Shown here: positions 790 through 45,939 of the stretch, in pieces | Layout of the letters: every line of letters begins with the position of its first letter | Numbering within the stretch: the stretch's first letter is position 1 | From: a virus | Virus record (IMG/VR): IMGVR_UViG_3300011013_000025 | Location: 1-46,156 of that record | DNA length: 46,156 bases | Strand: one strand, 5' to 3' | The notes under the pieces: generated by a model | Told to the model about the DNA's origin: nothing | Database searches by the model: none | The model's input: only the letters and a program-made list of their open reading frames with translations | Made by a program: the position numbers and the translations under genes

Positions 790-791
790 TT

Positions 792-5837: not shown

Positions 5838-5874
5838 ATCTTGGGGAATGGGATAATAATTAAAAAAATAAAAA

Positions 5875-7110: not shown

Positions 7111-7112
7111 TT

Positions 7113-8648: not shown

Positions 8649-8649
8649 A

Positions 8650-8946: not shown

Positions 8947-8947
8947 G

Positions 8948-9643: not shown

Positions 9644-9647
9644 AATT

Positions 9648-12005: not shown

Positions 12006-12018
12006 AAATAAATATAAA

Positions 12019-12252
12019 ATGCATACATACATAGTAATAGACATAGACACTCAGACAAGTTTAGTAGACTTTAGTCAGGTTAATACATCGAGTGCCCAAA
12101 CTATGAGAAGAAATATAGCCAATACTGAGGCAATGATTAGTTATAATGTAACCCCTTCATTTATTACAAATGGTAGGTTAGTTCCATTACAGACTTTAAA
12201 TCACGAGGAGGCATTAGCTTTATTAGCCACTCCAGAGTGGACACCAGAATAA
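12019..12252 (+). CDS. Small hypothetical protein
   Basis: A 77-residue protein (MHTYIVIDIDTQTSLVDFSQ...). It looks like a small alpha/beta fold: a beta strand (YIVIDID), a helix with TMRRNIANTEAMI, a strand, then a helix with NHEEALALLATPEW. No membrane segment and no known motif. Its place between the adhesin-like and coiled-coil membrane genes suggests a virion or lysis accessory. Confidence 0.6.
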   Translation: MHTYIVIDIDTQTSLVDFSQVNTSSAQTMRRNIANTEAMISYNVTPSFITNGRLVPLQTLNHEEALALLATPEWTPE

Positions 12253-12271
12253 CCTACAGAAGAATAAGATC

Positions 12272-12460
12272 ATGGAGGAAAAAATAGACAAACTAATACA
12301 AGGCCAAGTAAGACTTGAAACTAAAATAGAGCAAATGTATAAGCAAAAAAATGATCATGAGGAAAGAATCAGGGGTTTAGAAAAGAAGTTTTGGGTTGCT
12401 TTAGGAACTTTCTTCATTGGCATAGGCACCTTTATAGAGGGATTCTTTTTAGGTAAATAA
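12272..12460 (+). CDS. Coiled-coil membrane protein, XhlA-like
   Basis: A 62-residue protein with a coiled-coil segment (residues 1-38, MEEKIDKLIQGQVRLETKIE and on) and one C-terminal membrane span (FWVALGTFFIGIGTFIEGFF). The layout is that of hemolysin XhlA-type phage proteins, often lysis accessories. This could make a second lysis locus besides 7268-8648. Length and layout are the only evidence. Confidence 0.55.
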   Translation: MEEKIDKLIQGQVRLETKIEQMYKQKNDHEERIRGLEKKFWVALGTFFIGIGTFIEGFFLGK

Positions 12461-27424: not shown

Positions 27425-29190
27425 TGGCATTTTCTTTAAAAATAAAATATTACAACTCTTTTTGGTTAAAAAAAGTTACACATGATGATCAGAATATAGA
27501 ATGGGCTGATTGGCCTGGTTTACCGTGGAACCCAAGTGGTTGGCCAACTTATCCATTTGGTACTGGTAGAACTTGGAGAACAACCGCTGTTCCGCCTCCT
27601 ATAGGCGGTGATCCTTACTTTTGGTACGTAGAAGAGTCTAGGATTAAAGGTGGTTATAATAATACTAGTGTAGATTTTGGAGTTAGAGCTTACTTAAAAG
27701 AAGAAGATACAACTGCTGACATTAGGGATTCATCACTTATTTACTCTGGTATATACAACTCTAGAACTAGTGTAAATAACACTAATCAATTCCCGTCTGG
27801 ATCAGAGATAACTAGGAGTTTAGATCCATTAAATGGTTCTATACAAAAATTATACTCTGAAAATACAAATCTAACTATATTACAAGAAAACAAAACTAGC
27901 CAATCGCTAATAGATAAAGACGCTGTTTATTCTGCTGAAGGCACAGCTTTAACAACTTCAGGGAAACAAGTGATAGGACAGACCGTACCGTATTTAGGTG
28001 AATATGGTATAAGTAGGAATCCAGAAAGTTTCGCTATTTTTGGATATAGAAAATACTGGGTTGACAGGTATAGGAATAAAGTATTAAGATTATCTAGAGA
28101 TGGTATTACTGAGATATCTAATTATGGTATGAGGGATTTCTTTAGAGACGAATTCGTAGAGCTATCAGATGATTACCAACAGATACTACATGGGCCATAT
28201 ACTTTTGATAACACCGCCATTGGATCATCTGACTTGTTTGATGTTGGTATAGATGATTGTTGTCAAGCTATACCAGGTGCATCAATCGCTGTTATCGACG
28301 CTGCAGATGGGTTTCAAGTTTTAAACGTTGAAGATGATATTGGTGGTGGAATTCAACAAAGTGCAATACAGGGTTGTATTGATTTAACAGCAACGGGAGG
28401 AACAGTTGTAGTAGATGTTCAAAATGAATGGACAGCTCAGTCTACTACTTATTTAAATACCGCAAGTGAGGTTTACTTTGTAACATACGAGAAAAATAGA
28501 ATTGCTGGTGGTTATGATAATTACAATGATGAATATGTTTTATCTATACAGAAAAACTCACCTAATTTTTCTCAAGATCAAGACACATATAAAACGTTAA
28601 CATACGATGAGGGAGCTAAAGGTTGGGTTAGTTTCTACACTTATAAACCTCAATTTGTAGATAGTTTAAGAGGTGGTTATTATAGTTTTTACGATGGAAA
28701 ACTATGGAAGCATTATGATTTAAATCAAAGCAGAAACACATTCTACAACGTGTATAATGACTCCAGTATAAGTTTAGTATTTAACCCTAATCCTTCTGTA
28801 ACTAAGAATTTTAATACTCTATCTTATGAAGGAAGTAACGGGTGGGAGGCTTTTACTGGTATATCTGATCCACAAGAGTTTGACGATTTAAACGGAGTAC
28901 CAACATCTTATGAAGATGCAATATTACTAACTAAAAGTTACGAAGAAGGTAAATTTACTGATGGAGGTGTGATTTATAGATCTGGGTTTAATCGCAAGGA
29001 AAACAGATATGTAGCTAACATTGTGAACAACAGTGTACAGAGAATTGGGGAAGTGGTCTTTGGGGATCAAATGAGTGGTATTAAAGGTTACTATATAACT
29101 GTTACTTTAAAAACAGATCAAACAACTGATATAAGTGGAGCTAAAGAATTATTCGCGGTATCATCTAATTTCGCTGTATCATCATATTAA
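27424..29190 (+). CDS. Muzzle-like tail protein, C-terminal partner
   Basis: A 588-residue protein. The segment QKLYSENTNLTILQENKTSQSLIDKDAVYSAEG, then GEYGISRNPESFAIFGYRKYWVD...RLSRDGITEISNYGMRDFFRD, is one I recall from the C-terminal part of muzzle-type tail proteins of Bacteroidota phages. The middle (residues ~275-330) holds three cysteines, two adjacent (DDCCQAIPGAS). The last 250 residues are beta-rich with repeated W and Y positions. It starts inside the stop of the 1080-residue gene (TAATG), so both products are made together. They may form one particle part from two chains. Confidence 0.68.
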   Translation: MAFSLKIKYYNSFWLKKVTHDDQNIEWADWPGLPWNPSGWPTYPFGTGRTWRTTAVPPPIGGDPYFWYVEESRIKGGYNNTSVDFGVRAYLKEEDTTADIRDSSLIYSGIYNSRTSVNNTNQFPSGSEITRSLDPLNGSIQKLYSENTNLTILQENKTSQSLIDKDAVYSAEGTALTTSGKQVIGQTVPYLGEYGISRNPESFAIFGYRKYWVDRYRNKVLRLSRDGITEISNYGMRDFFRDEFVELSDDYQQILHGPYTFDNTAIGSSDLFDVGIDDCCQAIPGASIAVIDAADGFQVLNVEDDIGGGIQQSAIQGCIDLTATGGTVVVDVQNEWTAQSTTYLNTASEVYFVTYEKNRIAGGYDNYNDEYVLSIQKNSPNFSQDQDTYKTLTYDEGAKGWVSFYTYKPQFVDSLRGGYYSFYDGKLWKHYDLNQSRNTFYNVYNDSSISLVFNPNPSVTKNFNTLSYEGSNGWEAFTGISDPQEFDDLNGVPTSYEDAILLTKSYEEGKFTDGGVIYRSGFNRKENRYVANIVNNSVQRIGEVVFGDQMSGIKGYYITVTLKTDQTTDISGAKELFAVSSNFAVSSY

Positions 29191-29194
29191 TATA

Positions 29195-29656
29195 ATGGAA
29201 AACAATTTAATTTTAAGTAGAAGAGAAGAAATAAAAAAACTACAAGATATAGTCGTGTCTAAAAACGACGGTGAAAACTTTATCGGTGATGGTAAAGAAA
29301 TAGTACATCACGAATCAATTCCTCTAAAGCACACTTTTGCTGATAGTGTATACATCAGACAAATGGACATGAAGAAAGATTCGTTTGTAGTAGGAGCAAT
29401 ACATAATCATTTACATGTATGGTTCTTATTAACCGGGAAATTACTAGTGGCAATGGAGAATGGTGTTGAAGAATTCGTATCGCCATGTTACGTGTTATCT
29501 GAACCAGGTAGTAAAAGAGTTATATATGCAGTGGAAGATTCTATCTTTGTAAATGTACACAAAAATCCAAGTAACACTGAAGATATAAAAAAATTAGAAT
29601 CAGAGATAGTTTCTTTAACATTCGAAGATTATGAAGAATATATTAAAAATAAATAA
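29195..29656 (+). CDS. Cupin-fold protein
   Basis: A 153-residue protein with one cupin barrel. Motif one is GAIHNHLHVWFLLTGKLLVAM, with histidines that could bind a metal. Motif two is EPGSKRVIYAVEDSIFVNVHKN. The ATG at 29195 is chosen because it lies 4 bases after the previous stop; an ORF start 60 bases upstream overlaps the muzzle-like gene and has a less natural leader. I recall similar cupins in phage tail regions. No substrate is known. It lies between tail and ejection genes, so a virion-assembly or minor virion part is possible. Confidence 0.75.
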   Translation: MENNLILSRREEIKKLQDIVVSKNDGENFIGDGKEIVHHESIPLKHTFADSVYIRQMDMKKDSFVVGAIHNHLHVWFLLTGKLLVAMENGVEEFVSPCYVLSEPGSKRVIYAVEDSIFVNVHKNPSNTEDIKKLESEIVSLTFEDYEEYIKNK

Positions 29657-29659: not shown

Positions 29660-30292
29660 ATGACATTTGTAATGGTAGGTATAGCTGCTGCAAGTGCAAT
29701 TACAAGCACTGTTGTAGCTATAGATCAAAAAAAGAAATCAAACAAGAGGGAACGTGATGCTAAGAATCATGAAAGGCAGATTAAAAACTTAGAAGCTAAT
29801 AGACAAGAGATAATCAATCCATTTGAGAACATGTCTAATGAATACGCTAATATCGGTGTGGCTACTCAAGCAGCGGAGTTTCAAGCTCAGGAAGCAGACA
29901 TTGCATTATCTAATACATTAGATACGTTAATGGCTTCAGGCGCGGGTGCAGGTGGAGCTACAGCTTTAGCTCAAGCTGCATTAAAAAGCAAAATGGGTAT
30001 ATCAGCTAGTATAGAACAGCAAGAAGCAAATAATGCTAAGATTAGAGCACAAGGGGCGATGGAAGTTCAGAAAATGAAAGCAACTGGCGAGCAATGGAAG
30101 TGGAGTCAGCAAGAAGGTAGAGAAATGCAGCAATTAAATAGAGAGCAAGCGTTAATGGACAACGATCTTCAGCAACAAATGATGCATCAACAGAATACGT
30201 ATAGTGCTATTGGGGATATAACTTCAACTATGGGTACTATTGGTGCTGGTATTGCTGGTTCTGAAGGTTATGAATTTGGAAAAAAAGAATAA
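29660..30292 (+). CDS. Internal virion (ejection-type) protein, small
   Basis: A 210-residue, mostly helical protein. The N-terminus has a hydrophobic, alanine-rich stretch (TFVMVGIAAASAITSTVVAI), then a basic coiled coil (KKKSNKRERDAKNHERQIKN). A small G/A-rich turn (MASGAGAGGATALAQAALKSK) separates further Q/E-rich helices. Size and helicity resemble T7 gp14-type ejection proteins, and the order small, medium, giant mirrors T7 genes 14-15-16. The function, channel formation on infection, is inferred. It starts 4 bases after the cupin. Confidence 0.65.
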   Translation: MTFVMVGIAAASAITSTVVAIDQKKKSNKRERDAKNHERQIKNLEANRQEIINPFENMSNEYANIGVATQAAEFQAQEADIALSNTLDTLMASGAGAGGATALAQAALKSKMGISASIEQQEANNAKIRAQGAMEVQKMKATGEQWKWSQQEGREMQQLNREQALMDNDLQQQMMHQQNTYSAIGDITSTMGTIGAGIAGSEGYEFGKKE

Positions 30293-30298: not shown

Positions 30299-31867
30299 AT
30301 GGGAACTTACGAAAAACCTGGTCAAATAAAAGTAGCAGACGCGTCTGTTATAGGTAAAGGTGTACAGGCGGGGATGAAATCCATCTATACAGCTATGATG
30401 GCGAACGCAAAAGAGCGTAAAAAGAGAAACCTAAAGATCATAGGTAAAAACAATGAAGATTACGCTAAATATGACAAAGCTTCGTTTGACGTTAAGAACG
30501 TTGGAATGCAAGGTTTTGATGACAAAGTAAGGAATATGTTAGAGAGTGGTGGTAATGACTATTATGAATTAGCAAATAAAGTTAATAGAGGGGAAATCTC
30601 ATACGCTGACGGTAAAGCTTCGATGAATAGAATATTAGCTATGCCAGAAAACTCTAAGAACCTAAATGCTTCTTTAAAAGCGTTTTATGATGATATGGAT
30701 GCAGCTATGCAGTTACAGCCAGGTCAACCAGGATATGTTGCAGCAAGAGAAATGGATGATAGATTAACGGCTATTTACTATGATTTTAAAAATAACCAAG
30801 GTGCTAACATCGGAATGAACTATGATGAAACTGGTAATATATTTTTAACATTGAAAGGAGAAGATGGTGAAGATGATATTGTCCTGAATGGCGGTATGTT
30901 TTCTAAAGAATCCTATGGTGGTATAGAGATGGTTCAAAAAATGCCTGATTTAAACGAAATGATCAACCCGTTAGTTGATGAACTAAAAAAATCTATAGGA
31001 TATGATAAGGGTGTATCAGAGAGTGTTAAGGGTGAGACCAGTAGCAGAACTTATAAAAACTATACAGGGAGAAACGCGAGTTTATTACAAAACGTAGAAA
31101 AACCAAATACTTTCTCTTCTGTGTTAGAGAATACTGACTTTAAAAACGGTTTTGGATTTTTAGTTGATAAATACGGAGGTGAACTCAGTGAGGATCTTCT
31201 AACTTCTAATGGGATTAATTTAGGTGATAAATGGTTTGCTGGTACAGATCAAGCTTATGAAGAGAAAGATGGTAAAATGGTTGAAACTGAAGAATCTAAA
31301 GCTCAGAAAAAACTAGCTAATGAATTACTTATAAAATGGACAATGGATCCAGCGAATGGTCAAATTCAAGAAGATCCAGGTAGAGTGCTCACTGCGAAAA
31401 GTAGCTTTCCAGGTTCAAAAAATAAAGACGGGAGTAAAAGTACTCAAAAAGAAAGAGAAGCTGATTATTGGTCGAAATCAATAGATAAAATAGAGAAGGA
31501 GGGGGATAAATTTACCCCTGATGGAGTAACTAATTGGTTAAACACTAATACAATAGCTAGTGGCGACGACAAAACTAGCTACATAACTAAAAAGACATTA
31601 CTTGAACATTATGAAAAGAAATATCCTAAACCTGCTAAGCGTGGTTATGATTTGTATAAATCAACAAGAGAAGAATATATTGAGAAAATTAAAAGTATGA
31701 GGGACGATCAAATATTTAGAGTGGATGAAGGTGATAAAGACGCGGCGATCAACAACAGGGTCTACAGCGCAAGTGGTAACGTTAAAGATGAGTTACTAGA
31801 AGAAATTGGTAAAATTAACACTAGTGGTAGTGGTGGTGATGAAGAAACTGGTGGTAACATAAGATAA
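30299..31867 (+). CDS. Internal virion (ejection-type) protein, medium
   Basis: A 522-residue hydrophilic protein without membrane spans. The N-terminus MGTYEKPGQIKVADASVIGKGVQAGMKSIYTAMMANAKERKKRN is helical. The middle has acidic and glycine-rich segments. The C-terminal half is charged (ADYWSKSIDKIEKEGDKFT) and ends GSGGDEETGGNIR. Its MGTY start is shared with the protein at 5142. Gene order and length suggest the T7 gp15-like partner of an ejection complex. No family was recognised, so the call is from context. Confidence 0.55.
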   Translation: MGTYEKPGQIKVADASVIGKGVQAGMKSIYTAMMANAKERKKRNLKIIGKNNEDYAKYDKASFDVKNVGMQGFDDKVRNMLESGGNDYYELANKVNRGEISYADGKASMNRILAMPENSKNLNASLKAFYDDMDAAMQLQPGQPGYVAAREMDDRLTAIYYDFKNNQGANIGMNYDETGNIFLTLKGEDGEDDIVLNGGMFSKESYGGIEMVQKMPDLNEMINPLVDELKKSIGYDKGVSESVKGETSSRTYKNYTGRNASLLQNVEKPNTFSSVLENTDFKNGFGFLVDKYGGELSEDLLTSNGINLGDKWFAGTDQAYEEKDGKMVETEESKAQKKLANELLIKWTMDPANGQIQEDPGRVLTAKSSFPGSKNKDGSKSTQKEREADYWSKSIDKIEKEGDKFTPDGVTNWLNTNTIASGDDKTSYITKKTLLEHYEKKYPKPAKRGYDLYKSTREEYIEKIKSMRDDQIFRVDEGDKDAAINNRVYSASGNVKDELLEEIGKINTSGSGGDEETGGNIR

Positions 31868-31878: not shown

Positions 31879-34800
31879 ATGGACGAACAACTGTTAAAGG
31901 ATTTAGTAGCTACAGCTAGGAATTATAAGTACGATTGGGATATTGTATCTGAGAAGTTTCCTGAATTTGAAGGTATAGACTTGCAAGTTTTGAAAGACTA
32001 TGTAGCTACAGCTGAGCATTATGATTATGATTACGATATTATAAACCCTAAGTTTCCAGAGTTCCAAACTGTAGATAACGTAGCTACAGGTGCTGAAATA
32101 ATGGAGGAAACCGGAGGTGAAGTTAATCGTCCTGTTAGAGAGAATAGATTGTATGAAGTAGATGGCAAGATGTTTAATGTATCTGGAGTAGATATTGGTT
32201 ATTTTCTTCGTAAAAATCCAAAAGCTGTAGATATATCTAACTCACCGTACGATTGGAATAGTCCAAACGTGGACCAATCATATAACTATCATAAACATGA
32301 TGTAAAAGAAGATGAACCTGAAGAAATCACCGAAGAAAAAGCTCCGTTGGAAAGAGCTGAATTTAGCGTTGACGAAGAAGCTTGGGAGGTAAATAGGATG
32401 AGCGAGGGTTTATCTATAGAACCAAACTTTATTGAAGAAGTTAATGAGGAGTTTGAAGCTTGGAAAGCTGCTGGTAATGGAAACGTTAATAGTAGAGACA
32501 TCAATGGTGAATACGTGTGGGATGGTCAAGGACCCGATCCTAGAGCTATTGATGAAATGCTATTCGCTAAAAGTAAAAAAGCTGAGGAAGATAAAAATAT
32601 AAAAGAGTTGTTCCCAAATGTCAGTGAAGAAGTATTAGATCTTTACAAGAGAGGTTTTATAGATAAAGATGAAGTGGAGAATTTTGATCCAGATAGAAGT
32701 CATTTGCCATATAACGTGTTAGAGGCTTCTTACGAGAGTGGTCAATATCAACTGTATGATCCACTTAGAAGATGGCAGAAAAAAACAGACGTTGTTAATC
32801 CACTTCTAACTGATTTTATAAAGTCAGAGTCAACTATAAATGAAGTTCGCCAGGAGTATTTTGATTATGAATCTACAGTTTGGGAGAATAATGACATAGA
32901 GGCAATAGCTAAACAAAAAAGAAGACAATATCAAAAAGATGGTAAAATTGTGGTTGGAGTTGGCGGAGTTGGATATGGTGTGTATGCTTTACCTGGAACT
33001 ATAACTGAAGAAGAGATTATAAAGGAAGCTAAAGAAGATATTAATAGAAATGTAGAAAAAACAACATCATTATATGTTAATGAAGATTTTAGGTTACTAA
33101 AAATAAAATTTAATAAATACCAAGAGTTATTAGAAAAGAAAGGCGCAGATGATCCTGAAACTAAAAACGCTGCTTTAACATACAGGATAGCATGGGAAGC
33201 TACAGTTGGTGAAGGACAAGGTAAAAAAGTTGGTTCTATGCTTTTTGATCCAGAAACTGAAAAATTCTTAAACGACTATAGTAAAAAGAATTTACCAGAA
33301 TCCGAAGAAAATGATAATATACTACAAGATGCCAAAAATGGTAAATCAGATATAGATATATTAAAAGAAGATAGGAATAAGTTGTTTTACGAAATAGTAG
33401 CATTGAACGATGCTATAACTAATGGTCCATTAGCAAGTAGAATGATAGATTTCATGAGCTCTGAAGATGCTTCTAAACTAAAGAATTTAGGACAATTAAC
33501 TGTTGAAATGCAGAGGAAGAAATATGAGGAAGGAATAGATGGAAGTAAAAGAATAAAATGGAATCCCAACGAAGCTGGTCGTAAACTCAGTTTAACAGAG
33601 AACTTCAAAAGAATGTCTGATCCTGGTAAACCCGGTGAGAGGTTACCTTATTATCTATCTGGACTTCCTGAATTTGGGGATGATTTTACTAAAATGTATA
33701 ATGATAAATTAGCCAAATTTTTAACCCTAACAAAAGCGATAGAATACAATTACGATCCGGCTTCGGTAGAACGACTCGATTGGCGTAACCCGGCCCGTTG
33801 GGTTGATGCTATGGGTGAAGCTGTGCTAGATAGAGTGGCAGGTGGAACAGGCGTTGAAACTTCTAATAAAATAGCTAAGAGGTTTGAAGGAGTTATGGAA
33901 GATTTGAGTAGGAATGTACCGGAGAATCTAAAAGATAGAGCTGAAGATGAAGTAATAGACCAGATATGGGGTGGAATGCCTGAATTTATGTTTATGGTCG
34001 GAGTTGTAGCTTTAGCAAAACGACCAGTTGCTGGATTTGGAGCAAGATTATTCGGTGGAGAAGCTACTGTTATGGGTAGAGCTTTCACGAAAGTTGCCTT
34101 AGAATCTAGTAAGGCCAGAGGAGCTCAAGCTGCCGCTCAAGCTGTTTCTATATCTGAGTCAAAGTTTTTATCATGGGGTGCTGAGACGATGGCTAACGTA
34201 GGTGTTGAAGTTGGAGCAATGGAGATTTTTAATGAAGTAGATAAAGCCACTGGTGGAGAAGGGATGCCTAGGAGTATCGCTGCTGGATTTGGTTTTATGA
34301 ATCCTCAGATGAAGTATTTAATGAATACTAAAATATTCGCACCTATAATGAAAGGTGAAGCTAAAGGATTGATACCACTGAAACCACTTGGGAGGCGAAT
34401 TATTCACTCTGCTGGTGCCACCGCCACAGCTACAGCTGTTGAGTTATTTGATGCTGCTGTTGTTCAGGGTAATTTAGATGCTGAAACATATAAGCATATA
34501 ACAGATTGGGAGAAAGCTGGCATCTTGTTTACGCAGATGCTTTTAAGTGGATATGGATCACACATAATGAATGCTCCTGCTGGAATTAGAGAGTTTTATG
34601 GTAAACTAGAGAATGAACTAGGTGGTCACATTGGCTCTAAAGGAGCTAAAAAAGTTGCTAAAAAATATAATATTAGATTAGGATGGTGGACTAATGAGAT
34701 GCTAGAGAAAAAATACAATGAAGCTAAGAATGAAATCTATGAAGATCCAAAATACGAAGGGCAATTCGATCCAAAAAATAAAGCTCCTTTTATTGGCGCT

Positions 34801-37800
34801 GATGGTAAACCCACGGAACTTTCTAAAAAATTAAAAGAGTTAGATAACGACTTTTTAACACTAAGTAAGCTGAAAGAACAGCAAGCTCTTCAAGAGATAA
34901 TAAAACAAAACAAAGATTCTAAAAATACCTATAACGAATACCAGAGAAAAGCTGCTGAAGTTATAAATGTTATTTCCAAACAGTCAGAAACAGGCGAGCT
35001 GCAGTTAACTCAAGAGCAAATAGATTTTATAGCTAAATGTCCAGATGGAATATTAAAACTAGTAGCTAGAGGTGATGTTGTTGGTGAAGAAACTGGAATG
35101 ATAGACTCTCAGATAGATAGGATAAAAAACGAATATTCAATCTTATCTCACTCTGCCGATTACAGTGGTTTTAAGAGAGGCACGAAGCAACGTAAAGAAT
35201 TTTTTGATTTAGCTCAAGAGCAAGAATCTCTAATTGCTAAAATAAGTAAAATAAACAAAAATAAGCAACAAGCGTCCAGGGCAATGGAGTTGCATGGTGC
35301 TAAGATTAGAATTAAGCAAATAGAAGAGAGAAGATTAGAGTTAGTTGAAGAAAATCAAGAATTTTTAGAACAACGTAGACAAGAGGAAATTATTAGAGCT
35401 CAAGAAATACTAGCTAAAGAGTACAATAAGAATCCTGATGATTTTGTAATAACGGAGAATCACGAGCAACTCAAAGAAGAGTACCTTAAAGATACAGGTG
35501 TAGAATTGAAAGGTATGCCTGAAGGTATTTACGAACATAGTAATGGTAAAATATATATAGATTTACAAAAAGCAAGAGATGTAAATAATATATCAGTAGC
35601 TATGCATGAAGCGCTGCACAAACTAATGGAGCCAGTTATTAGAGATCCAAAAGTTGATAAGTGGTTAGAAGATAACAGACATAAGAACAGTGAAAAAGCT
35701 ACTAAAGAAGAACAACAGGAGTATAGGGATAAGTTAAAAGAACAAGACGACCATATAGAAAAAATAGTTGATGAATTCAGAAAAGAATTAAGCTGGGAGC
35801 AACTAAGAGAGGTTCAATTAAAGTTGATGTCTCAAGGTTTAGATCCTCTTAAATATAACAACGTAGAATGGTTTAACGCTTTTAATGATGCTATAATTGA
35901 CGGAAGGATAAAATTTGAGAACAATTCTAATTTATTTAAGAAGTTAGCTAATGTATTTGTGAAGAAAACTCCTTTTATAAATGCTGAAGTACCAACTGGA
36001 AAGCAAGCTTATGATTTCATAAAAGATTTTGCTACTAAAGAAGTAAAAAAGAAAGTACACATAGATAAAACTGAAACTTCCGCAGAGAAGACGCCTGAAG
36101 ATGTAACTAAAGGCGTAGAAGAATTAACTGAAGATGTTGTTAAAGATGAACAGTCAAGTGATGGCGTAAGAACGAAAGGCGGTGTTAAAAGTAGAGAAAA
36201 AGTTAAAGCTGATCAATTAGAGGGAAGAGTTGAGCTATATGAAGCTAAAACTAAAGCATATATAGAAGGTGGAGGAGAAAATGTTAAAGTTAAAGGTGAA
36301 TCACAACCAAAAGTTAAAGAAGTAAAAGAAGTAACTTTTGAAGACATAAAAGATGGTAAAGTTTACAATAACAAAGGTGAAAAAAGTCCTAAGAATGCTA
36401 AAGCTGCTTTAACAAAAGGAATTGTTGACGCTAAGGGTAATAGTTATAAAATAGGTGGTAAAAAAGATAAACAGAATTTACAGAAAAAATCCAAAGATGG
36501 TAAATGGAAGCTATTAACAGAAGAAACTTTTCCAAATCAACAAAGTGCTTACGAATGGTTTTTAAAGAATATCACTAAAACCGATGTCACTGGAAAGAAA
36601 GTAAAGTTAAAAGATAGACCTAAATCTTCTTTATCTAATAAGAAGGAATTTAATAAGAATTTTAAATCTAAAGAAGATAAAATAAGAGAATTAAATAGAA
36701 TTCGTGAAAATGCATTAGAATACGTAAGCCAATTTCAAACAAAAAGTTTAAAAGAAAAGCATGCTGAAGATATTAGCGACGCTAATAAGCAATTGAATGA
36801 TGCTAAAAAATTAATAAGGGAACTTAAAAAGAAAGAAAAGGTAGCTGTTGAAAGAAAATCTGCCACTATAGATGATTTAGCCAGTGAATATCTTGAAGAT
36901 TGGCATGTTGACGTAAAAAGAGGTCTCACGGGGGCTGATATCGTTGCATCTAAGATCATCGGAGACGATATATCAGATAAAGGTATGATTAAGGGTTTAA
37001 TCATCAATACGGTCAACGGGGTGATGAAAGCTAAGGGTGGTGCTAGTATATCTGAAGATGTAATGGATGCTATGGTTGACGACGTTAAAGCTCAATTATT
37101 ACCTCATATTAGAAACTTTAATAGAGAGTTTCTAGCCGTCAATGAAAGAACTTACGATGAAATCACCACTGATTACGAGAATATTATATTAAATAAGTTT
37201 TTAGGTAAAACTAAAAAGAATCCAAGCTCTTATATATCCAAAGAAGAAAAAGCTAGGATAAAAGGTAATTGGGTTGAAAACATACTAAAGAAAAATAAAT
37301 TAACCTACGAAGAAGCTGTACAAGGCGAAATTAAAAATTTAAGTGCTGAAGATAGGAAGTTATTTGATATAATAAAGAAGTTAGAAATAGTTGAGTCAGA
37401 ATCTAAGTATGGGACAAAGCAAATGTTTTTTGATCCAAAAGATTTACTTAACATCGAAGGTACTATTCCTCAAGAAGTTTACGACAAGTTATACGATTAC
37501 AAGGTTGTTGAAAACGAAAGTTTATCAGCTTGGATAAATAGTGTAGTTAAGTTTAAAACCTTTAAAGCTTTTGAAAATCAAACTGGAGAATTTGAATTCA
37601 ACCAGGACATTAGTGATATTACTAAAAACGTACCTAGATCAGAAGAAGGATTTTTTAATGATTTCACTTACGAAGATCAATATAAGTTTGTTGCTGAGAA
37701 AGATAAATTCAATGAAGAAAGTTTAAGAAAGAAGTTAAACATTTCTGACAAGTTAAAAGAAGATATCAGACAGAATGTGTTGAAGGATATGAAGATGAAG

Positions 37801-40800
37801 CTACTTGGCGATGAACTAAAAGGTGAATCCACTGCCTTTACTAATATAAATATCAAAAAAGCTAGTGAAGCGTTACATAGGATAGAACTTTTAAAGTCTG
37901 GTAAAACAGGTCAAGATTTAACGCCTGCTCAGAGAGCTAAAGTTATGTCTAGTCAAATAAAAATATTTAACAAAGAGATAAAAGAATTCAAACAGTCTAT
38001 TCAAAAGAAATTTGAAACTTCATATTTGGATTTTGTTAGAAAAGAATTATTCGGAGCTATAGAAACGTTTGATGCTGAGGGTCAATTTAAGGGATTGTCG
38101 ATAGTTAAAAACATTGAAGCTTATGAAAAATTCTTAAATGAAAACTTTAAAACTATATACGACAAGCTTTCTATAACAACCTTGAATGAAAAATACAAGA
38201 AAGGTAAAGGTGAACCAGAATTTGAATTTGTAGAGAGATTAGCTGAAAGAATGACCGCTGAAGAAGGTGTAAAACAAAAAGTTAGCGACATACACGCTGG
38301 TAATGTAGTTTGGAGGAAATTAGAACTAAGTGAATTAACTGAAATAAGAGATGGTGAGGAAGTTCTTAAGCAAGAAGTTTTAGATTACTTTCTAAAACCA
38401 AAAAGATCTAACCTAAATGAAAGAGCAAGAGGATTAGCTAATGTTATATCCACTGAGCTTGCTTTTGATGCTGCAATGGAGGTTTTTAGAAGTAAAGATT
38501 TTCAAGATTTAATATCTGAAAGACCGGAAGGTGTAGTTGGTAATGAAATAGATATAGTTTCTAAAGCTTTATTAAGAGATCCAAATCTTAGGTTTATGAA
38601 CACGGTGAATGAGGTGTTAGGTTATCCAGTTGAAGCATTTGAAGGTATTGCGATGGAGTCATTTGGAGATGTATTTGATAGAAATCTTAAATTAACGGAA
38701 ACTTTAGACGTTGTTCTCAATGAAATAGTTGAAAACAGATACTCTTATGACGAAGCGAAGCAGAAGATAAAAGACGATCACCAAGGTGTAGTAGAGTATT
38801 TAAATGATTACAATTCTGGTATATTTGAAGGTCCTGATAACAGTGGGTTGGCAAGTAAGACAAAAACTATTTTGAAAAAAGTTGGTTCTGAAACAGCTCA
38901 AGGTAAGTTGTTAGCTAGCACTTTAACAAGTCGCGCGCCTAAAGAAGCAATCGAACTTACTGCGGGGTTTGTGGATAAGTTATCATCTTATGTACCTGAA
39001 GGTTTAATTAGAGGATTGGAAGAAAGTGTTAAAAGAAATAAAGATAGAAGCACTAATGCAAAAGGTATAACTCAGCAAGGTTTTGACTCAATGATTGGCG
39101 CTTATACATATTCATCTAAGCGCGGTTTAGATCGCAGAGCTGAAAAGCATGTAAGCAAAAAAAATGACCCTAACGTTATAAAGCACAGAGGAAAAGTTGA
39201 AACCGCTAAAAAGAATTTAAAAAATTCTCCATTTACGGAAGGCACCGCAAGAGGTAAGAAAGAGGCGGAAAAAAGAGGAGATAAAGCGAGTAGAATAAAC
39301 ATAGCTAAAACTCTTTTAAAAGAAGGATTAATAACTAAAAAACAAAGTAATAAGTTACAATCAGCTTTAGATAAAGCTTTAGGTGCTTTAGAAGGTTATA
39401 AAGACTTGCAAGGAACCTATTTAAGTGAATATTCAAATACCGGTGAAATGTCTTGGGCCACTGATATCAAAGTATTTAAAGAAGCATGGGATAGTTTAGA
39501 TAAAGTAATGGAAGAGTTGATTGGTGAGGAAATTCCAAAAGATGCTACCATTGGCAACGCTAGAACGAAAGCTTCTATAGCAAAGTACAAAAGTTGGGCA
39601 GCTAGAAACAAGAATACTGTTTTTGGAAAAATGGAAGCGAATAAGAAATTTACAACAGGTGATAAAAGCAGGAAATACTCAATCGTGAGGAACAAAGTTA
39701 AAGGAAGCGCACAAAGAGGTGATCCTATAAGCCTTGTTAAGAAAAATTACGAAGATTTATTAAATAATTTTAAAAAGTACGCTGAAGCTCACAAAAACGC
39801 TAGAACTCCTATTGTCAACAAAGATAGTAAAGCTGTTTCGGGTGAGTTTTATGATTTACATAAAGAATTTCCCAAGAGAGAATTCAAAAAAACTGAAGGT
39901 GATTTTAATCATATTGGTGATGTTATGATGTATGACACTGGTACTGGGTTTGGTAGAGTTTATAATAAAATTAGAAATAAACATGTATCTGTTGAGCAAA
40001 GAAGAATAGAATTAGATAATTATACTGCAGATATACTTAAAGCTAATAATGCTAATAAAAAACTATTTGCAGATATATTAAACTCTCATTATGAGCTTTT
40101 ACTTAATTCTAAAAAAGCAGATTTTGAAAAGAATTGGTTAGGTTGGGTTGAGTTTATGAAGGTTCAAATTGAGCTTCAAACTGGTTTAAAGTCTTTATCA
40201 TCTTTAGATTTCATGGAGATAAGTAAGGATTGGTCAAAAGATTCTTATAATGAGCATGTCATGGCATTCTCTAATACTGTTAGTAGATTATTTGACGTAT
40301 TCTCCAGAGGATTAGCAGATAATATGAGTTGGGAAAATATACAAAAATCAGTGCGAGATGTTATTAGTGATAATTCTTCAGCTTTTGTAAGTAGAGAAAC
40401 AGCTAGAATGATAATAGATCCTAGATTTGGTCAAACTAGTGACATCGGTTCCTTAAGACTATACGCTATTGAAGGATTGAAAGATTTGTATGTTGTTGGT
40501 AGTAAAGCTAAAAACGAAACGCAAAGGAAGAAGGAGATACAAGAATATGTTATAGCTGAAACCTACAAGAGAGGTATTGTGAAGAAAGAAGCTCAAGCCG
40601 CTAAAAAGAACGTAAAAGAAACTAATAAGAGCAACGTGGTTAGAGTTAGTAAAAGCGCCACTAATGAAGAGGTGTTAAGTTTAGCTGCAACTATGGACGC
40701 TGCTTTAGACATCGCTAGAAATCCTAATTCTCCTGTTAAAAAAATAAGAGTGTTTGATTTTGATGACACTTTAGCCAAGACAAAAAGTAACGTGCTATAC

Positions 40801-43800
40801 ACATTACCAGATGGTACTAAGGGTAAACTTACAGCTGAAGAGTTTGCTAAGAAAGGTAGTAAGATGGTTGCTGAGGGTGCCGTGTTAGACTTCTCTGAAT
40901 TTAACAAAGTTGTAGATGGTAAAAAAGGTCCGTTATTTGAAATTGCTGAAGCTATACAAAATAAAAGAGGTGCTAAAGATATATTTATACTAACAGCTAG
41001 ATCTCCAGAAGCTGCTAAAGCTATTCATGAGTTTTTAAATAACGCTGGATTGAATATACCATTAGAAAATATAACAGGTTTAGGTGACAGCTCTCCGTTC
41101 GCTAAATCAAAGTGGGTTATAGAGAAAGCCGCTGAAGGTTATAATGATTTCTATTTTGCTGATGATCACATTAAAAATGTTGAAGCAGTGCAGGATGCTT
41201 TAGATCAAATCCAAGGGCTAAAGACTAGGACTCAAGTAGCTTTACCTCAAGGAAAGGTTAAAAGTGAACCGCTTAACAAAAAACAAGTAGACGCAATAGA
41301 AGCTAATTCAATGCGTGACATAGATAACGAAGCTAGTTCTGACGGTTATTCAAATGTTAGGTTTTCTAAAAGTCATAGAGTTGAATATGAGAAAATGCTG
41401 GAGAAAAGAAGACCTGATCTAAAAGGTCAAATACCAGAGCAAGTTAATAAAGTTTTTGAGTTTGTAGACAGTCCTGGCGTGCCAGAAAATAAGAAAACAA
41501 AATTCGAAAAACTAGCTTTACATTATCTATCTAAAGGTTTTTTAATATTACCAGAGGATGGTTATAAAGTTGTAGAAGCTGAAAGATTAGCTAGTGCTAA
41601 AAAGATTGATCCTTTCTCGTTTAGTAATCCTAATGAAATAATAGAGAAATTTGCAGGAGAAGTTAAAGGTAAAAGAATAAATCCAAGTACCATGAGCGCT
41701 TTATCCAATAAGCGAAGTCTCGAATATGGTATAACTATTTACGATGTTGCCAATACAAGGGAAGCTCAACAGCAAGTTAGATCTATAATCGATACACATT
41801 GGGGTAAAAAATCAAATCCCTGGTGTTTAGCTGCGAGAACTGGACCTTATGACGCTAGCGGTAAAAAAACAATGGGTGAGCAAGCTTGGGAGCATTGGGA
41901 GAATTATGGTGAAGAAAAGCAAATAGCTTTTAAAGATGGCAAGTTAGTTGCTTTTAGGGATGGAGACGCTAAGCAATGGTGGGATAAACTGGATAGACCT
42001 AGTTATGAAATAGAAGTTAGAGGTTCAGTGGAAAAAACTGAGAAATCAAAGAATGCACAGGGTGATGAAGTTAAAACCAAAACAAGGTTTATTTACAGAA
42101 TAGATCCAGAAACAGGTGTTAAAGAAAAGGGAAATAAAGAAGTTATATCAACGTATAAAAATAAAGACGGTGAAAATGTTAGCGATGCTACTATTACTAA
42201 AGGACTACCTCCAGTACTTCACCAAGCGCTTGGAAAGAATCTTGTTATATCAACAGAGAGAAAAGTTAATGGTAAAAAAGATGGTAAACAACACCAACTT
42301 TATTTAGAAGAAAATGCATATTTAGATCTTCTTTCGTTTTTAGAAGAAGGAGGTGCAGTGGTATCGAGAGATAGAAAGTACGAAAAAATACCTAAAAAAG
42401 GTGAACACTACACTCTTGAGGAAATAAAGCAAGCGCCTATGGATATATACTATGATGCTTTTCCAACAGAAGCTTTTGAAATTTGGGATAAAGGTAATAT
42501 GGTAGAACGGAAAAATGTTCAAGGATATAACATGCATGGGAACCGAGTTAAATATCAAGATCTAGTACAATTTAGAGGGGATGTTAAAAAAACAACAACT
42601 TATGAAATAAAAAGATCAGTTGAGAATGACAATAATATATGGCGTGATACTAAAAGTGTTGTAGAAGAAAAAGAGGGGAAAGTTAACAATATTTATGAAT
42701 TAAGTAAGTCTTTTGGAGCTTCAGGAGTTACTATCAAGAAGAATAATTATAAGGTTAAATTTAATAAAGATGGAGTTATATATAGAGAGCTAAATGGTCG
42801 TAAATTCCTAACTGAATACGATATATTTATGCGAAAAGTACTTGCATCATCACTCGCGAAAGACACAAATTTAACAGAGTCAGTTGGTTGGTATTGGAAT
42901 GATACTCATGGTGGTAGTATTGGTAATGCTCGTAATGTTTTATTAGCTAAAACAATATGGGATAAAGTTAAAGTTGAAAAAGAAGGTGTTAAAAAAAGTT
43001 GGGGTGCGATATTAGAGGTTGAAGGATTAAAAGACAAGAACTTTAAAGATTGGGCTTTTGATAGATTCAACGATAATAAACCTATGAAGGTTGAGGATAA
43101 GATAGTAGTAGGTAAAGAAGTTAAATTGGTAGGAAAAAAAGCAATGAAACGCGAGAGGTTAATGCAGGGACTTCTTGAAGATATTTTATTTGCTAAAAAA
43201 ACGAGTTTAGAAAATCAAATAGTACCTTTAGATAAGAACTTAAAACCTACTTCTAGATTCAGTATGGAAACTAAAATGGACTTAGAGTGGAAGAAAACTG
43301 AAAAACCTGGTCCTGAATGGGAGAAGGAGCCTTCTATTGGGTATAAAGCTGAGTTTAATATTAAAGACAATAAATTCACAATAAGCATGGGTAGAATGTT
43401 TGAAAGTGAGTCGTTGGCGCATGTAAATCATATTTCAGGTAGAGATGACATAACGGAACTAAAAGGTGATTATTATGTTTTAGATTTTGCTTTTATTGAC
43501 GCTGAGGGTAAACCTAGGGTTGACATGACAGGCATAATGGGACCTGACGGTGGTAAAGTTTTAAGTATAGTAGCTAATGGGGTTGTGGACTTTGTTAGGA
43601 AAAATAAAAATATTAAAGGTTTGTATTTCTCTTCAGCTATAGACAAGAGAACTAGAATATACAAAGCAATGGCTAGGACTTTCGGTAATGAGTTAGATTG
43701 GGGATATAAGAGTAAGAAAGAAGACGCTTTATGGGGAGAAACTGATCTTATAGTATCTGCAGATATTCCTGTTAGAAAGAATTTAAGTGGACAAAGAAAA

Positions 43801-45939
43801 CCAGTTAGAGACGTATTAGGCGTTATAGATAAAAGTTCTAATACACAACAAGCTAGATTTAGTGAAACAATAGATCTTAATAAGATCATGAATCAAATGA
43901 TAGAGGATAAAACTGGTATACCTGCTGAAAAAACTTTCGATCAATTAGCTAAAAGTATTGGTAGGAAGAAAGGTCGAGGTAAGATATTCATGCCTTACTC
44001 CACTGAAGATTTTAAAGGTTTGATATATCCTCTTATATCATCTGGTAAAGTTGGTGACGCTCAATTAAAGTTAATGAATGAAGTGTTGTTTAAGCCTTTT
44101 AATAGAGCTATGAATAACGTTTCTAGAGATAGAATGCAGGTAAATGCTGATTTTAAGGAATTAAAAAGAAACTTAAAAAGTGTTCCTAAAAATCTAACTA
44201 AAGAAGCTATACCTGAATCAGGTTTGACTTATGAAAATGTCGTTAGACTTTATTTATGGGATAAGCAAGGTATAGAAATAGAAGGTGTTAATGCTGAGAC
44301 AATGAAGAACGTTTGGGAGATAATGCAAGAGAAACCTGAACTGCAAGCATTCGCTGATCAATTAATGAATATTAATAAAGGAGACGGTTATTACTATCCA
44401 GGGGAATTATGGCTGACTGGAAATATGACTTCAGATTTATACAGTGGTATAAATAAAGTTAAAAGAAAGAAGTATCTAGCTGAATGGAAGAGAAACAAAG
44501 ATATAATGTTCAGTAAAGATAACATGTTAAAATTAGAAGCTGCTTATGGACCTAAGTACGTAGAATCGTTAAGGGATATCTTAAGAAGAATGGAGACAGG
44601 TGTTAATAGACCAGAGAAAAGCTCTAGATTTGAAGATATGGCAATGAACTACATTAATGGATCAGTTGGTGTAACGATGTTCTTTAACACTAGATCAGCT
44701 ATACTACAGACTATATCCACAGCTAATTACATAAACTGGTCAGATAACAACTTATACAACGTTGGTAAAGCTTATGCTAACGCGCCTCAATTCGCTAAAG
44801 ACTTCTTATACTTAATGAAGTCAGATTTCATGAAAGATAGGAGAAGCGGCTTAAAGATAAACGTTAGCGAATCTGAGATAGCCGACGCGGCTAAGAAAAA
44901 GGGTTATAGAGGCGTTTTGAATTTACTACTTCAATCTGGGTTTTCCCTTACTAAAGCTGGTGATGCTTTTGCTATAGCTTTTGGTGGTGCTCCATTCTAT
45001 AGGAATAGAGTTAAAACTTATGAGAAGCAAGGTTTCGATAAGGCGGAAGCAGAAAAGAAGGCTTTTGAAGATTTTAGAGAACTAACGGAAGAATCACAAC
45101 AATCTGCTAGAACAGATAAGATTAGTATGCAGCAAGCAGATAAATGGGGTAGGATAATATTAGCATTCGCTAATACACCAATGCAATATAACAGGTTAAT
45201 AAAGAGATCTGCTCAAGATTTGATAAAAGGTAGAGGTGATTGGAAAAGCCACACGTCTAGAATAGTTTATTACTTGGGTGTTCAAAACCTTATATTTAAC
45301 GCTTTACAAAGAGCTTTATTTGCCATGGAAGGAGATTTAGATAGTGATGAGAATAAAGATAGATATTACGAGGTTGGTAATGGTATGTTAGATTCAATTT
45401 TAAGAGGTAGTGGATATGGTGGAGCTTTGATATCCGTATTAAAGAACTTTGGTGCAGAGATGCACGAACAAAGTAAGAAAGATAGACCTCAATATAGAGA
45501 TGCTTGGATAGAGCTGCTTGGAATTGCACCTCCTGTTCAAGCTAAAATAAAAAGACTGCAGCAAGCAGGTAAGACTTTAGATTATAACCAGAGAACAGCA
45601 GAGGAGATGGGTTGGAAGTTTAGTTTAGATAATCCTAATTACCAATCTGCAGCTTCTTGGATTTCTGGGGCTACAAACATACCATTAGATAGATTAATGC
45701 GTAAAGCTGACAACGTTAATCAAGTATTGAATGATGATTGGGAAAATTGGCAGAAAGTAATGATGGTATTAGGTTGGAACAAATGGGAGTTGGAAACCGC
45801 TGATCAAAAAGAGAAAATGGAAGAAGAAAAAGCGAAAACAACTAAGAGAAGAAGAAAAGAAACTTACGAAAAGAATAAAGCTGAGAAGAAAAGAAAAAAA
45901 TCTAAAGCCAACGCAGCTATGGGTTTAATTACTAATTAA
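31879..45939 (+). CDS. Giant 4686-residue multidomain virion/cargo protein
   Basis: Probably packaged and ejected into the host. In order: a tandem ~32-residue repeat at 1-68 (LKDLVATARNYKYDWDIVSEK, then LKDYVATAEHYDYDYDIINPK); an alanine/glycine-rich region at ~700-930 that may be amphipathic; a zincin-like motif His1243-Glu1244-x-x-His1247; long lysine/glutamate helices (~1370-2300); a HAD phosphatase-like domain at ~2955-3110 with Asp2960-Phe-Asp2962-Asp-Thr, LTAR (3038-3041), Lys3076 and Asp3095-Asp3096; a WCLAA segment from Trp3315; a FSS-x5-R-x-x-Y segment at 3917-3928; and a helical C-terminal domain (SGFSLTKAGDAFAIAFGGAPFY). The last ~50 residues are lysine/arginine-rich. This resembles polyvalent or T7 gp16/N4-type ejection proteins. 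The DxDGD polymerase motif of crAss virion RNA polymerases was not found. Confidence 0.75.
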   Translation: MDEQLLKDLVATARNYKYDWDIVSEKFPEFEGIDLQVLKDYVATAEHYDYDYDIINPKFPEFQTVDNVATGAEIMEETGGEVNRPVRENRLYEVDGKMFNVSGVDIGYFLRKNPKAVDISNSPYDWNSPNVDQSYNYHKHDVKEDEPEEITEEKAPLERAEFSVDEEAWEVNRMSEGLSIEPNFIEEVNEEFEAWKAAGNGNVNSRDINGEYVWDGQGPDPRAIDEMLFAKSKKAEEDKNIKELFPNVSEEVLDLYKRGFIDKDEVENFDPDRSHLPYNVLEASYESGQYQLYDPLRRWQKKTDVVNPLLTDFIKSESTINEVRQEYFDYESTVWENNDIEAIAKQKRRQYQKDGKIVVGVGGVGYGVYALPGTITEEEIIKEAKEDINRNVEKTTSLYVNEDFRLLKIKFNKYQELLEKKGADDPETKNAALTYRIAWEATVGEGQGKKVGSMLFDPETEKFLNDYSKKNLPESEENDNILQDAKNGKSDIDILKEDRNKLFYEIVALNDAITNGPLASRMIDFMSSEDASKLKNLGQLTVEMQRKKYEEGIDGSKRIKWNPNEAGRKLSLTENFKRMSDPGKPGERLPYYLSGLPEFGDDFTKMYNDKLAKFLTLTKAIEYNYDPASVERLDWRNPARWVDAMGEAVLDRVAGGTGVETSNKIAKRFEGVMEDLSRNVPENLKDRAEDEVIDQIWGGMPEFMFMVGVVALAKRPVAGFGARLFGGEATVMGRAFTKVALESSKARGAQAAAQAVSISESKFLSWGAETMANVGVEVGAMEIFNEVDKATGGEGMPRSIAAGFGFMNPQMKYLMNTKIFAPIMKGEAKGLIPLKPLGRRIIHSAGATATATAVELFDAAVVQGNLDAETYKHITDWEKAGILFTQMLLSGYGSHIMNAPAGIREFYGKLENELGGHIGSKGAKKVAKKYNIRLGWWTNEMLEKKYNEAKNEIYEDPKYEGQFDPKNKAPFIGADGKPTELSKKLKELDNDFLTLSKLKEQQALQEIIKQNKDSKNTYNEYQRKAAEVINVISKQSETGELQLTQEQIDFIAKCPDGILKLVARGDVVGEETGMIDSQIDRIKNEYSILSHSADYSGFKRGTKQRKEFFDLAQEQESLIAKISKINKNKQQASRAMELHGAKIRIKQIEERRLELVEENQEFLEQRRQEEIIRAQEILAKEYNKNPDDFVITENHEQLKEEYLKDTGVELKGMPEGIYEHSNGKIYIDLQKARDVNNISVAMHEALHKLMEPVIRDPKVDKWLEDNRHKNSEKATKEEQQEYRDKLKEQDDHIEKIVDEFRKELSWEQLREVQLKLMSQGLDPLKYNNVEWFNAFNDAIIDGRIKFENNSNLFKKLANVFVKKTPFINAEVPTGKQAYDFIKDFATKEVKKKVHIDKTETSAEKTPEDVTKGVEELTEDVVKDEQSSDGVRTKGGVKSREKVKADQLEGRVELYEAKTKAYIEGGGENVKVKGESQPKVKEVKEVTFEDIKDGKVYNNKGEKSPKNAKAALTKGIVDAKGNSYKIGGKKDKQNLQKKSKDGKWKLLTEETFPNQQSAYEWFLKNITKTDVTGKKVKLKDRPKSSLSNKKEFNKNFKSKEDKIRELNRIRENALEYVSQFQTKSLKEKHAEDISDANKQLNDAKKLIRELKKKEKVAVERKSATIDDLASEYLEDWHVDVKRGLTGADIVASKIIGDDISDKGMIKGLIINTVNGVMKAKGGASISEDVMDAMVDDVKAQLLPHIRNFNREFLAVNERTYDEITTDYENIILNKFLGKTKKNPSSYISKEEKARIKGNWVENILKKNKLTYEEAVQGEIKNLSAEDRKLFDIIKKLEIVESESKYGTKQMFFDPKDLLNIEGTIPQEVYDKLYDYKVVENESLSAWINSVVKFKTFKAFENQTGEFEFNQDISDITKNVPRSEEGFFNDFTYEDQYKFVAEKDKFNEESLRKKLNISDKLKEDIRQNVLKDMKMKLLGDELKGESTAFTNINIKKASEALHRIELLKSGKTGQDLTPAQRAKVMSSQIKIFNKEIKEFKQSIQKKFETSYLDFVRKELFGAIETFDAEGQFKGLSIVKNIEAYEKFLNENFKTIYDKLSITTLNEKYKKGKGEPEFEFVERLAERMTAEEGVKQKVSDIHAGNVVWRKLELSELTEIRDGEEVLKQEVLDYFLKPKRSNLNERARGLANVISTELAFDAAMEVFRSKDFQDLISERPEGVVGNEIDIVSKALLRDPNLRFMNTVNEVLGYPVEAFEGIAMESFGDVFDRNLKLTETLDVVLNEIVENRYSYDEAKQKIKDDHQGVVEYLNDYNSGIFEGPDNSGLASKTKTILKKVGSETAQGKLLASTLTSRAPKEAIELTAGFVDKLSSYVPEGLIRGLEESVKRNKDRSTNAKGITQQGFDSMIGAYTYSSKRGLDRRAEKHVSKKNDPNVIKHRGKVETAKKNLKNSPFTEGTARGKKEAEKRGDKASRINIAKTLLKEGLITKKQSNKLQSALDKALGALEGYKDLQGTYLSEYSNTGEMSWATDIKVFKEAWDSLDKVMEELIGEEIPKDATIGNARTKASIAKYKSWAARNKNTVFGKMEANKKFTTGDKSRKYSIVRNKVKGSAQRGDPISLVKKNYEDLLNNFKKYAEAHKNARTPIVNKDSKAVSGEFYDLHKEFPKREFKKTEGDFNHIGDVMMYDTGTGFGRVYNKIRNKHVSVEQRRIELDNYTADILKANNANKKLFADILNSHYELLLNSKKADFEKNWLGWVEFMKVQIELQTGLKSLSSLDFMEISKDWSKDSYNEHVMAFSNTVSRLFDVFSRGLADNMSWENIQKSVRDVISDNSSAFVSRETARMIIDPRFGQTSDIGSLRLYAIEGLKDLYVVGSKAKNETQRKKEIQEYVIAETYKRGIVKKEAQAAKKNVKETNKSNVVRVSKSATNEEVLSLAATMDAALDIARNPNSPVKKIRVFDFDDTLAKTKSNVLYTLPDGTKGKLTAEEFAKKGSKMVAEGAVLDFSEFNKVVDGKKGPLFEIAEAIQNKRGAKDIFILTARSPEAAKAIHEFLNNAGLNIPLENITGLGDSSPFAKSKWVIEKAAEGYNDFYFADDHIKNVEAVQDALDQIQGLKTRTQVALPQGKVKSEPLNKKQVDAIEANSMRDIDNEASSDGYSNVRFSKSHRVEYEKMLEKRRPDLKGQIPEQVNKVFEFVDSPGVPENKKTKFEKLALHYLSKGFLILPEDGYKVVEAERLASAKKIDPFSFSNPNEIIEKFAGEVKGKRINPSTMSALSNKRSLEYGITIYDVANTREAQQQVRSIIDTHWGKKSNPWCLAARTGPYDASGKKTMGEQAWEHWENYGEEKQIAFKDGKLVAFRDGDAKQWWDKLDRPSYEIEVRGSVEKTEKSKNAQGDEVKTKTRFIYRIDPETGVKEKGNKEVISTYKNKDGENVSDATITKGLPPVLHQALGKNLVISTERKVNGKKDGKQHQLYLEENAYLDLLSFLEEGGAVVSRDRKYEKIPKKGEHYTLEEIKQAPMDIYYDAFPTEAFEIWDKGNMVERKNVQGYNMHGNRVKYQDLVQFRGDVKKTTTYEIKRSVENDNNIWRDTKSVVEEKEGKVNNIYELSKSFGASGVTIKKNNYKVKFNKDGVIYRELNGRKFLTEYDIFMRKVLASSLAKDTNLTESVGWYWNDTHGGSIGNARNVLLAKTIWDKVKVEKEGVKKSWGAILEVEGLKDKNFKDWAFDRFNDNKPMKVEDKIVVGKEVKLVGKKAMKRERLMQGLLEDILFAKKTSLENQIVPLDKNLKPTSRFSMETKMDLEWKKTEKPGPEWEKEPSIGYKAEFNIKDNKFTISMGRMFESESLAHVNHISGRDDITELKGDYYVLDFAFIDAEGKPRVDMTGIMGPDGGKVLSIVANGVVDFVRKNKNIKGLYFSSAIDKRTRIYKAMARTFGNELDWGYKSKKEDALWGETDLIVSADIPVRKNLSGQRKPVRDVLGVIDKSSNTQQARFSETIDLNKIMNQMIEDKTGIPAEKTFDQLAKSIGRKKGRGKIFMPYSTEDFKGLIYPLISSGKVGDAQLKLMNEVLFKPFNRAMNNVSRDRMQVNADFKELKRNLKSVPKNLTKEAIPESGLTYENVVRLYLWDKQGIEIEGVNAETMKNVWEIMQEKPELQAFADQLMNINKGDGYYYPGELWLTGNMTSDLYSGINKVKRKKYLAEWKRNKDIMFSKDNMLKLEAAYGPKYVESLRDILRRMETGVNRPEKSSRFEDMAMNYINGSVGVTMFFNTRSAILQTISTANYINWSDNNLYNVGKAYANAPQFAKDFLYLMKSDFMKDRRSGLKINVSESEIADAAKKKGYRGVLNLLLQSGFSLTKAGDAFAIAFGGAPFYRNRVKTYEKQGFDKAEAEKKAFEDFRELTEESQQSARTDKISMQQADKWGRIILAFANTPMQYNRLIKRSAQDLIKGRGDWKSHTSRIVYYLGVQNLIFNALQRALFAMEGDLDSDENKDRYYEVGNGMLDSILRGSGYGGALISVLKNFGAEMHEQSKKDRPQYRDAWIELLGIAPPVQAKIKRLQQAGKTLDYNQRTAEEMGWKFSLDNPNYQSAASWISGATNIPLDRLMRKADNVNQVLNDDWENWQKVMMVLGWNKWELETADQKEKMEEEKAKTTKRRRKETYEKNKAEKKRKKSKANAAMGLITN

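Follow-up and report, generated by a model that had tools for sequence, protein, structure and literature searches.

A 4,686-residue polyvalent-type viral protein combining a predicted zincin metallopeptidase, a HAD-type domain and exchangeable modules

Phage polyvalent proteins are huge polypeptides that join several enzymes and are encoded beside portal or terminase genes; zincins, with an HExxH motif and a Glu in a later helix, are their commonest domain, and self-processing has been suggested for them (PMC5512222). The N4 virion RNA polymerase gp50, a giant of about 3,500 aa, is ejected together with two smaller proteins of the gp50/51/52 cassette (PMC12633501). The T7 proteins gp14, gp15 and gp16 likewise form a cassette in small-medium-large order (PMC12633501). 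Here, we describe a 4,686-aa protein that shares with the polyvalent proteins its size, its joining of several enzymes, its neighborhood, its zincin residues and a helical C-terminal region of matching fold. It differs from them in that no Pfam polyvalent-domain model reaches threshold on it, in that its second enzyme is a resident HAD domain (PMC5512222 mentions neither haloacid nor phosphatase) and in having a recurrent [KRQ]FS[KR] linker, a fixed C-terminal chassis and swappable modules. The likeness to N4 gp50 lies in the HExxH zincin domain and the large helical C-terminal part; unlike gp50, the protein shows no RNA polymerase match, carries HAD, WCLAA and FSS-R-Y modules instead and comes from a phage of a different host group. 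The likeness to the T7 proteins is one of gene order and size ranking, whereas no sequence similarity was found, and the cassette has no sequence match to either gp14/15/16 or gp50/51/52.

The window, that is, the whole stretch of DNA that was analyzed, is a 46,156-base IMG/VR virus record (IMGVR_UViG_3300011013_000025). TerL, portal, MCP and other virion proteins encoded upstream of the giant gene match PHROG head-and-packaging families, and TerL is 63% identical to that of MW202828.1 and 45% identical to that of Flavobacterium phage elemo, with further kin in Cellulophaga, Maribacter and Tenacibaculum phages. Judging from these similarities, the source virus appears to be a short-tailed podovirus, kin to Flavobacterium and Cellulophaga phages, with marine flavobacteria-type hosts. 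Because the genomes of the relatives are 60-79 kb long, the window is very probably a fragment. Genome-contig matching gave 18 relatives, each of which lies in a metagenome-assembled genome; the labels of these genomes are mixed and include several Bacteroidetes bins, and the host signal from them is weak.

The order TerL-portal-MCP-tail-small-medium-giant is common to the window, MW202828, elemo, phi38:1 and phi18:3, and the giant gene is the last of the late (virion) operon, on the same strand and directly after the tail and ejection-type genes. The large gene at the end of this operon encodes 3,859 aa in MW202828, 3,694 aa in elemo, 1,691 aa in phi38:1 and 1,935 aa in phi18:3. The elemo giant shares the zincin, matching the family zincin profile (2.4e-15), and in the MW202828 giant HExxH occurs twice and the N-terminus bears repeats. 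A BLAST comparison of the window giant with these two giants gave no significant pairs, though the TerL proteins are 45-63% identical, so that homology rests on position and, for elemo, on the zincin profile as well. The MW202828.1 protein (P0002, positions 741-12320), in which both motifs read HEFGH, carries the misleading annotation "reticulocyte binding/rhoptry protein".

Several other features of the window were observed. At 3329-5129 lies a phage GroEL gene (518 aa), and a GroES-like ORF (87 aa) comes after it and overlaps it; this chaperonin pair is also present in the MW202828 and elemo phages. Two adjoining genes (231 and 785 aa) at 8948-12005 show, by eye, LamG/concanavalin-type repeats and probably encode fiber or adhesin parts. 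A cupin-like ORF of 173 aa (29135-29656) overlaps the end of a 588-aa gene, between the tail and ejection-type genes. At the contig start (1-540), about 130 bases of C/G-rich sequence, which differ from the remainder, come first, and a 20-base repeat follows in two copies (261-299); this region is possibly a contig-end artifact or possibly regulatory.

The giant gene takes up about 30% of the contig. The first-pass annotation had described it as a single gene for a multidomain protein and had suggested a polyvalent one. The gene is indeed one uninterrupted frame (Table 1), no frameshift or fusion artifact is indicated, and a single ORF of 2,704-3,612 aa occupies the same place in all 10 relatives first examined. 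The polyvalent architecture was likewise supported: besides the zincin and the HAD domain, the protein has two more modules and a helical C-terminus whose fold matches that of viral polyvalent proteins. To gather the family, IMG/VR was scanned with TerL and then with an alignment of the C-terminus, which yielded ten and then eighty loci. Of the 598 candidates in public viral contigs, at least 579 encoded the C-terminus, and the removal of fragments and near-duplicates left 73 complete non-redundant giants of 2,065-4,686 aa, among which the window giant is the largest. A tblastn search with both halves of the giant against 50,697 phage records gave zero matches, indicating that all relatives bearing its C-terminus are uncultivated. 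Whole-protein Pfam and PHROG scans detected the HAD domain only, and PDB sequence profiles of the C-terminus, HAD, zincin and WCLAA regions gave no significant match.

Table 1. Positions of the giant gene, its two upstream neighbors and the parts of the giant protein in the window.
Feature	Position	Strand	Basis
Small protein, 210 aa, cassette gene 1	29660..30292	+	Weak phi38:1 match; same order and size class in 10/10 relatives
Medium protein, 522 aa, cassette gene 2	30299..31867	+	Position and size class
Giant polyvalent-type protein, 4,686 aa	31879..45939	+	ATG start, no internal stop; last late-operon gene
N-terminal pair of ~30-aa repeats, aa 1-64	31879..32070	+	Read directly
Gly/Ala-rich region, aa 560-910, with one hydrophobic segment (692-712); candidate membrane-contact part	33556..34608	+	Hydropathy
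Predicted zincin (gluzincin) metallopeptidase domain, aa 1164-1400	35368..36078	+	Invariant residues and predicted fold
HExxH zinc site, aa 1243-1247 (MHEALH), sole copy in the protein	35605..35619	+	68/73 giants
Candidate third zinc ligand, E1330	35866..35868	+	Invariant in 68/68; 55/55 in second alignment
HAD-type hydrolase domain, aa 2906-3109	40594..41205	+	phrog_415 polynucleotide kinase, 2.6e-7; four motifs
WCLAA module, aa 3159-3790 (core to about aa 3468; WCLAA at aa 3315)	41353..43248	+	Homologues in five other giants
Linker RFSK at WCLAA module start, aa 3161	41359..41370	+	Motif
FSS-R-Y module, aa 3793-3976 (motif near aa 3917), DUF6934-like	43255..43806	+	Eight giants
Linker RFSM at FSS-R-Y module start, aa 3793	43255..43266	+	Motif
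Conserved all-helical C-terminal chassis, aa 3976-4686	43804..45936	+	44-52% identity, AF2, fold matches
Linker QQARFSE (RFSE) at C-terminal domain start, aa 3993	43855..43866	+	Motif

The zincin-like HExxH noted at first pass proved to be a family feature, present in 68 of the 73 giants with exactly one copy each, compared with 0.34 expected from composition. A third Glu, 83 residues past the second His in the window giant, was kept in every one of these 68 proteins. A second alignment, of 55 zincin regions that are 12-26% identical to that of the window, had H, E, H and E as its only invariant columns. The AF2 model of the domain (pLDDT 78.5) had its best matches among solved structures to metallopeptidases, namely, the lethal factor peptidase domain (Z 6.9, 176 aligned) and PPEP-2 (Z 6.0), followed by the collagenase G and H peptidase domains (Z 5.1 and 5.0) and, lower, minigluzincins. 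Since these Z values are below 8 and a Foldseek search alone with the model gave E values above 1, the fold supports the motif-based call and does not prove it. On conservation and modeling, therefore, the HExxH of the window appears to be a genuine gluzincin site, and peptidase activity is predicted. Five giants (L132, L133, L137, L170 and L192) are without any HExxH, and four of these are also without HAD.

The HAD-type domain, also called at first pass, retains all four motifs, DFDDT (aa 2960), LTAR, K and FADD (motifs I-IV), which are invariant in nine aligned sequences. It occurs in 58 of the 73 giants and, at 48-59% identity, is the best-conserved part upstream of the C-terminus. From its sequence, it seems to be most like the HAD domains of polynucleotide kinase/3'-phosphatases. 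Inserts of roughly 90-200 aa interrupt the HAD domain in L161, L117, L119, L173 and L195, and the one in L161 holds an FSS-R-Y module.

The WCLAA region, which the first-pass annotation had taken as conserved, and the FSS-R-Y segment turned out not to be conserved in the family: both belong to an 873-aa insert between the HAD domain and the C-terminus that most relatives do not have, and WCLAA is a rare, movable module. WCLAA relatives were located with a degenerate WCLAA DNA pattern followed by two-row alignment; homologues (E 1e-63 to 1e-67) were found only in five other giants, all with the zincin, and the core has 55 invariant columns. A tblastn search with this core against the 50,697 phage records found nothing. 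WCLAA precedes HAD in L296 and L298 and occurs without HAD in L294 and L297. FSS-R-Y is present in eight giants, where it lies after HAD, before HAD (L189) or inside HAD (L161). The domain orders recorded were HAD-C in 49 giants, HAD-FSS-C in two, and FSS-HAD-C, WC-HAD-C and, in the window, HAD-WC-FSS-C in one each. As judged from these arrangements, WCLAA and FSS-R-Y appear to be exchangeable modules that shift position relative to HAD. The match of FSS-R-Y to Pfam DUF6934 (6.9e-5) is below the cut-off and is the sole Pfam match of note; a GNAT identity was considered by eye only, and an acetyltransferase activity is therefore not claimed. Stretches resembling PD-(D/E)xK nucleases were seen by eye in L294 (aa ~1665-1715) and L297 (aa ~2040-2070) (GDLIITRPDGSDIKIEVK; IDIEFKLYGKKFFIEVKK), after WCLAA in both giants, neither of which has a detected HAD.

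The C-terminus, in agreement with its earlier description as conserved and helical, is 44-52% identical to that of 59 relatives, and its AF2 model is all-helical (pLDDT 78.5). The model matches viral proteins, including close relatives (E 1e-47 to 2e-41) and, at a distance (E 4e-7 to 5e-5), proteins named "Large polyvalent protein associated domain", "ART-PolyVal-like" and "PolyVal ADP-Ribosyltransferase". None of the solved structures rose above noise; the matches to the T7 core protein (9jyy, Z 3.0) and the PhiM1 ejectosome (8vb2, Z 3.7) are far below the trust level and serve as a lead only. Profile matches of the C-terminus to elemo and MW202828 were rejected as composition-driven because the bias exceeded the score.

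Residues 4-64, within the N-terminal repeats, resemble L138 (3.6e-11), and paired N-terminal repeats are also present in L294, L298 and the MW202828 giant. Residues ~586-818 match L117 and L121, and in 52 giants the zincin is preceded by a hydrophobic segment. No domain emerged from the long stretches aa ~65-560, 900-1160 and 1420-2900. The region of aa 1420-2900 diverges fast; the scans for RNA polymerase (no Pfam or PHROG match at E<=1) could miss a very divergent copy there.

The motif [KRQ]FS[KR] occurred in 77 copies in 78 giants compared with 15.9 +/- 2.8 in shuffles, a five-fold excess, and its density was about six times that in other ORFs of the same loci. In the same 78 giants, the FT, FN, FG and FA variants were not enriched, whereas the LS and IS variants were enriched about two-fold and [DE]FS[DE] about four-fold, so that part of the signal may reflect a general property of the giants. 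A looser form of the motif was found near the start of 36 of 76 C-terminal domains (2.5 expected), 13 of 60 HAD domains (2.0), all five WCLAA modules (0.4) and four of six FSS-R-Y modules (0.2). Many of these counts represent homologous positions and are not independent, yet single giants hold several copies (at least six in L296). Such linkers thus appear, on sequence grounds, to mark module starts. Many linker motifs are also borne by L137, one of the giants without HExxH. It is conceivable that the giant is an injected, self-processing polyprotein whose own metallopeptidase cuts the repeated [KRQ][FY]S[KR] linkers where modules adjoin and frees several enzymes inside the host, with the linkers doubling as seams for module swapping. 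We put this forward tentatively and think it rather doubtful; the zincin-bearing N4 giant is packaged unprocessed (PMC5512222), so that self-cleavage of the window giant is not assured.

The two smaller ejection-type genes proposed at first pass are supported by the size and order of the cassette, in which the giant was preceded by a ~230-340-aa gene and then a ~420-580-aa gene in 10 of the 10 uncultivated relatives first examined, and by a weak similarity of the 210-aa protein to its phi38:1 counterpart (phmmer 2e-5, best domain 6.5e-4). The 522-aa protein gave no sequence match to gp121, its counterpart in phi18:3. In that phage, MS/MS experiments underlie the annotation of gp120, gp121 and gp123 as structural proteins of the virion; gp123 is the positional counterpart of the giant, with no detectable shared sequence and no HExxH. 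By analogy with such counterparts, the window giant would be packed in the virion and delivered into the host. If it enters the host and acts there before the phage genes are expressed, as originally suggested, it would follow the precedents of N4 vRNAP and T4 Alt (PMC12633501, PMC5512222).

We therefore favor, with a probability of roughly three in four, the reading that the giant is a virion-packed, ejected polyvalent protein, the third and largest product of an ejection cassette of three genes (210, 522 and 4,686 aa). The helical C-terminus would be a constant chassis that probably serves in packaging or in docking to the other ejection proteins, and the N-terminal part with its Gly/Ala-rich hydrophobic stretch probably touches the host envelope. 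Between these ends would lie the near-constant metallopeptidase, the usual HAD hydrolase and the optional WCLAA and FSS-R-Y modules, which vary by phage. At infection, the giant would exit the head with the two smaller proteins, ahead of the DNA. The targets of its enzymes would be molecules of the host or of the incoming phage, and the peptidase may also cut the giant at the linkers, freeing modules. The size ranking within the cassette and the helical C-terminus could also suit a mainly structural core or ejectosome protein of the T7 gp16 type, with incidental or vestigial enzyme-like domains, and the leads to 9jyy and 8vb2 point the same way at their low Z values. However, the catalytic residues of the zincin and HAD domains are the best-conserved positions, those of the zincin being alone invariant in a very divergent region, and a scaffold has no need of an invariant H-E-H-E quartet, which makes this structural reading quite improbable.

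It is unlikely, in our estimation, that the zincin acts only in assembly, trimming the giant or other head proteins before the particle forms or inside it, with no proteolysis in the host. Such a role would accord with the cutting of P1 DdrB before packaging (PMC5512222), with linkers at module borders and with the finding that none of the ten window virion proteins scanned has a PHROG prohead protease match; the unprocessed N4 giant speaks against it, and the HAD and other modules would be of no use unless delivered. The position of the giant gene at the end of the late operon and the virion nature of its phi18:3 counterpart make it very improbable that the protein is a non-virion one, made in the infected cell for host take-over, and no tool result favors that account. 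An assembly artifact from chimeric joining is scarcely credible: although the HAD-WCLAA-FSS-C order is unique to the window contig and the first ~130 contig bases look aberrant, the sequence on either side of the 873-aa insert aligns with relatives without a break, its modules carry the family linkers, and WCLAA and FSS-R-Y occur in other giants in the same company.

On this main reading, the giant is a known kind of viral weapon in an unusually large and modular version. Polyvalent proteins gain a clear layout, consisting of a constant C-terminal chassis, a resident protease, usually a phosphatase-type enzyme and swappable modules; this layout, the resident HAD, a WCLAA module for which the searched libraries gave no match and a candidate linker code are what is new beside the known polyvalent frame. 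At least 579 public viral stretches encode the family-defining C-terminus, and none was found in an isolated phage. The linkers are specific candidate positions at which such giants might be cleaved, and if they are processing sites, the long-standing guess regarding zincins in injected phage proteins would become testable with a defined motif.
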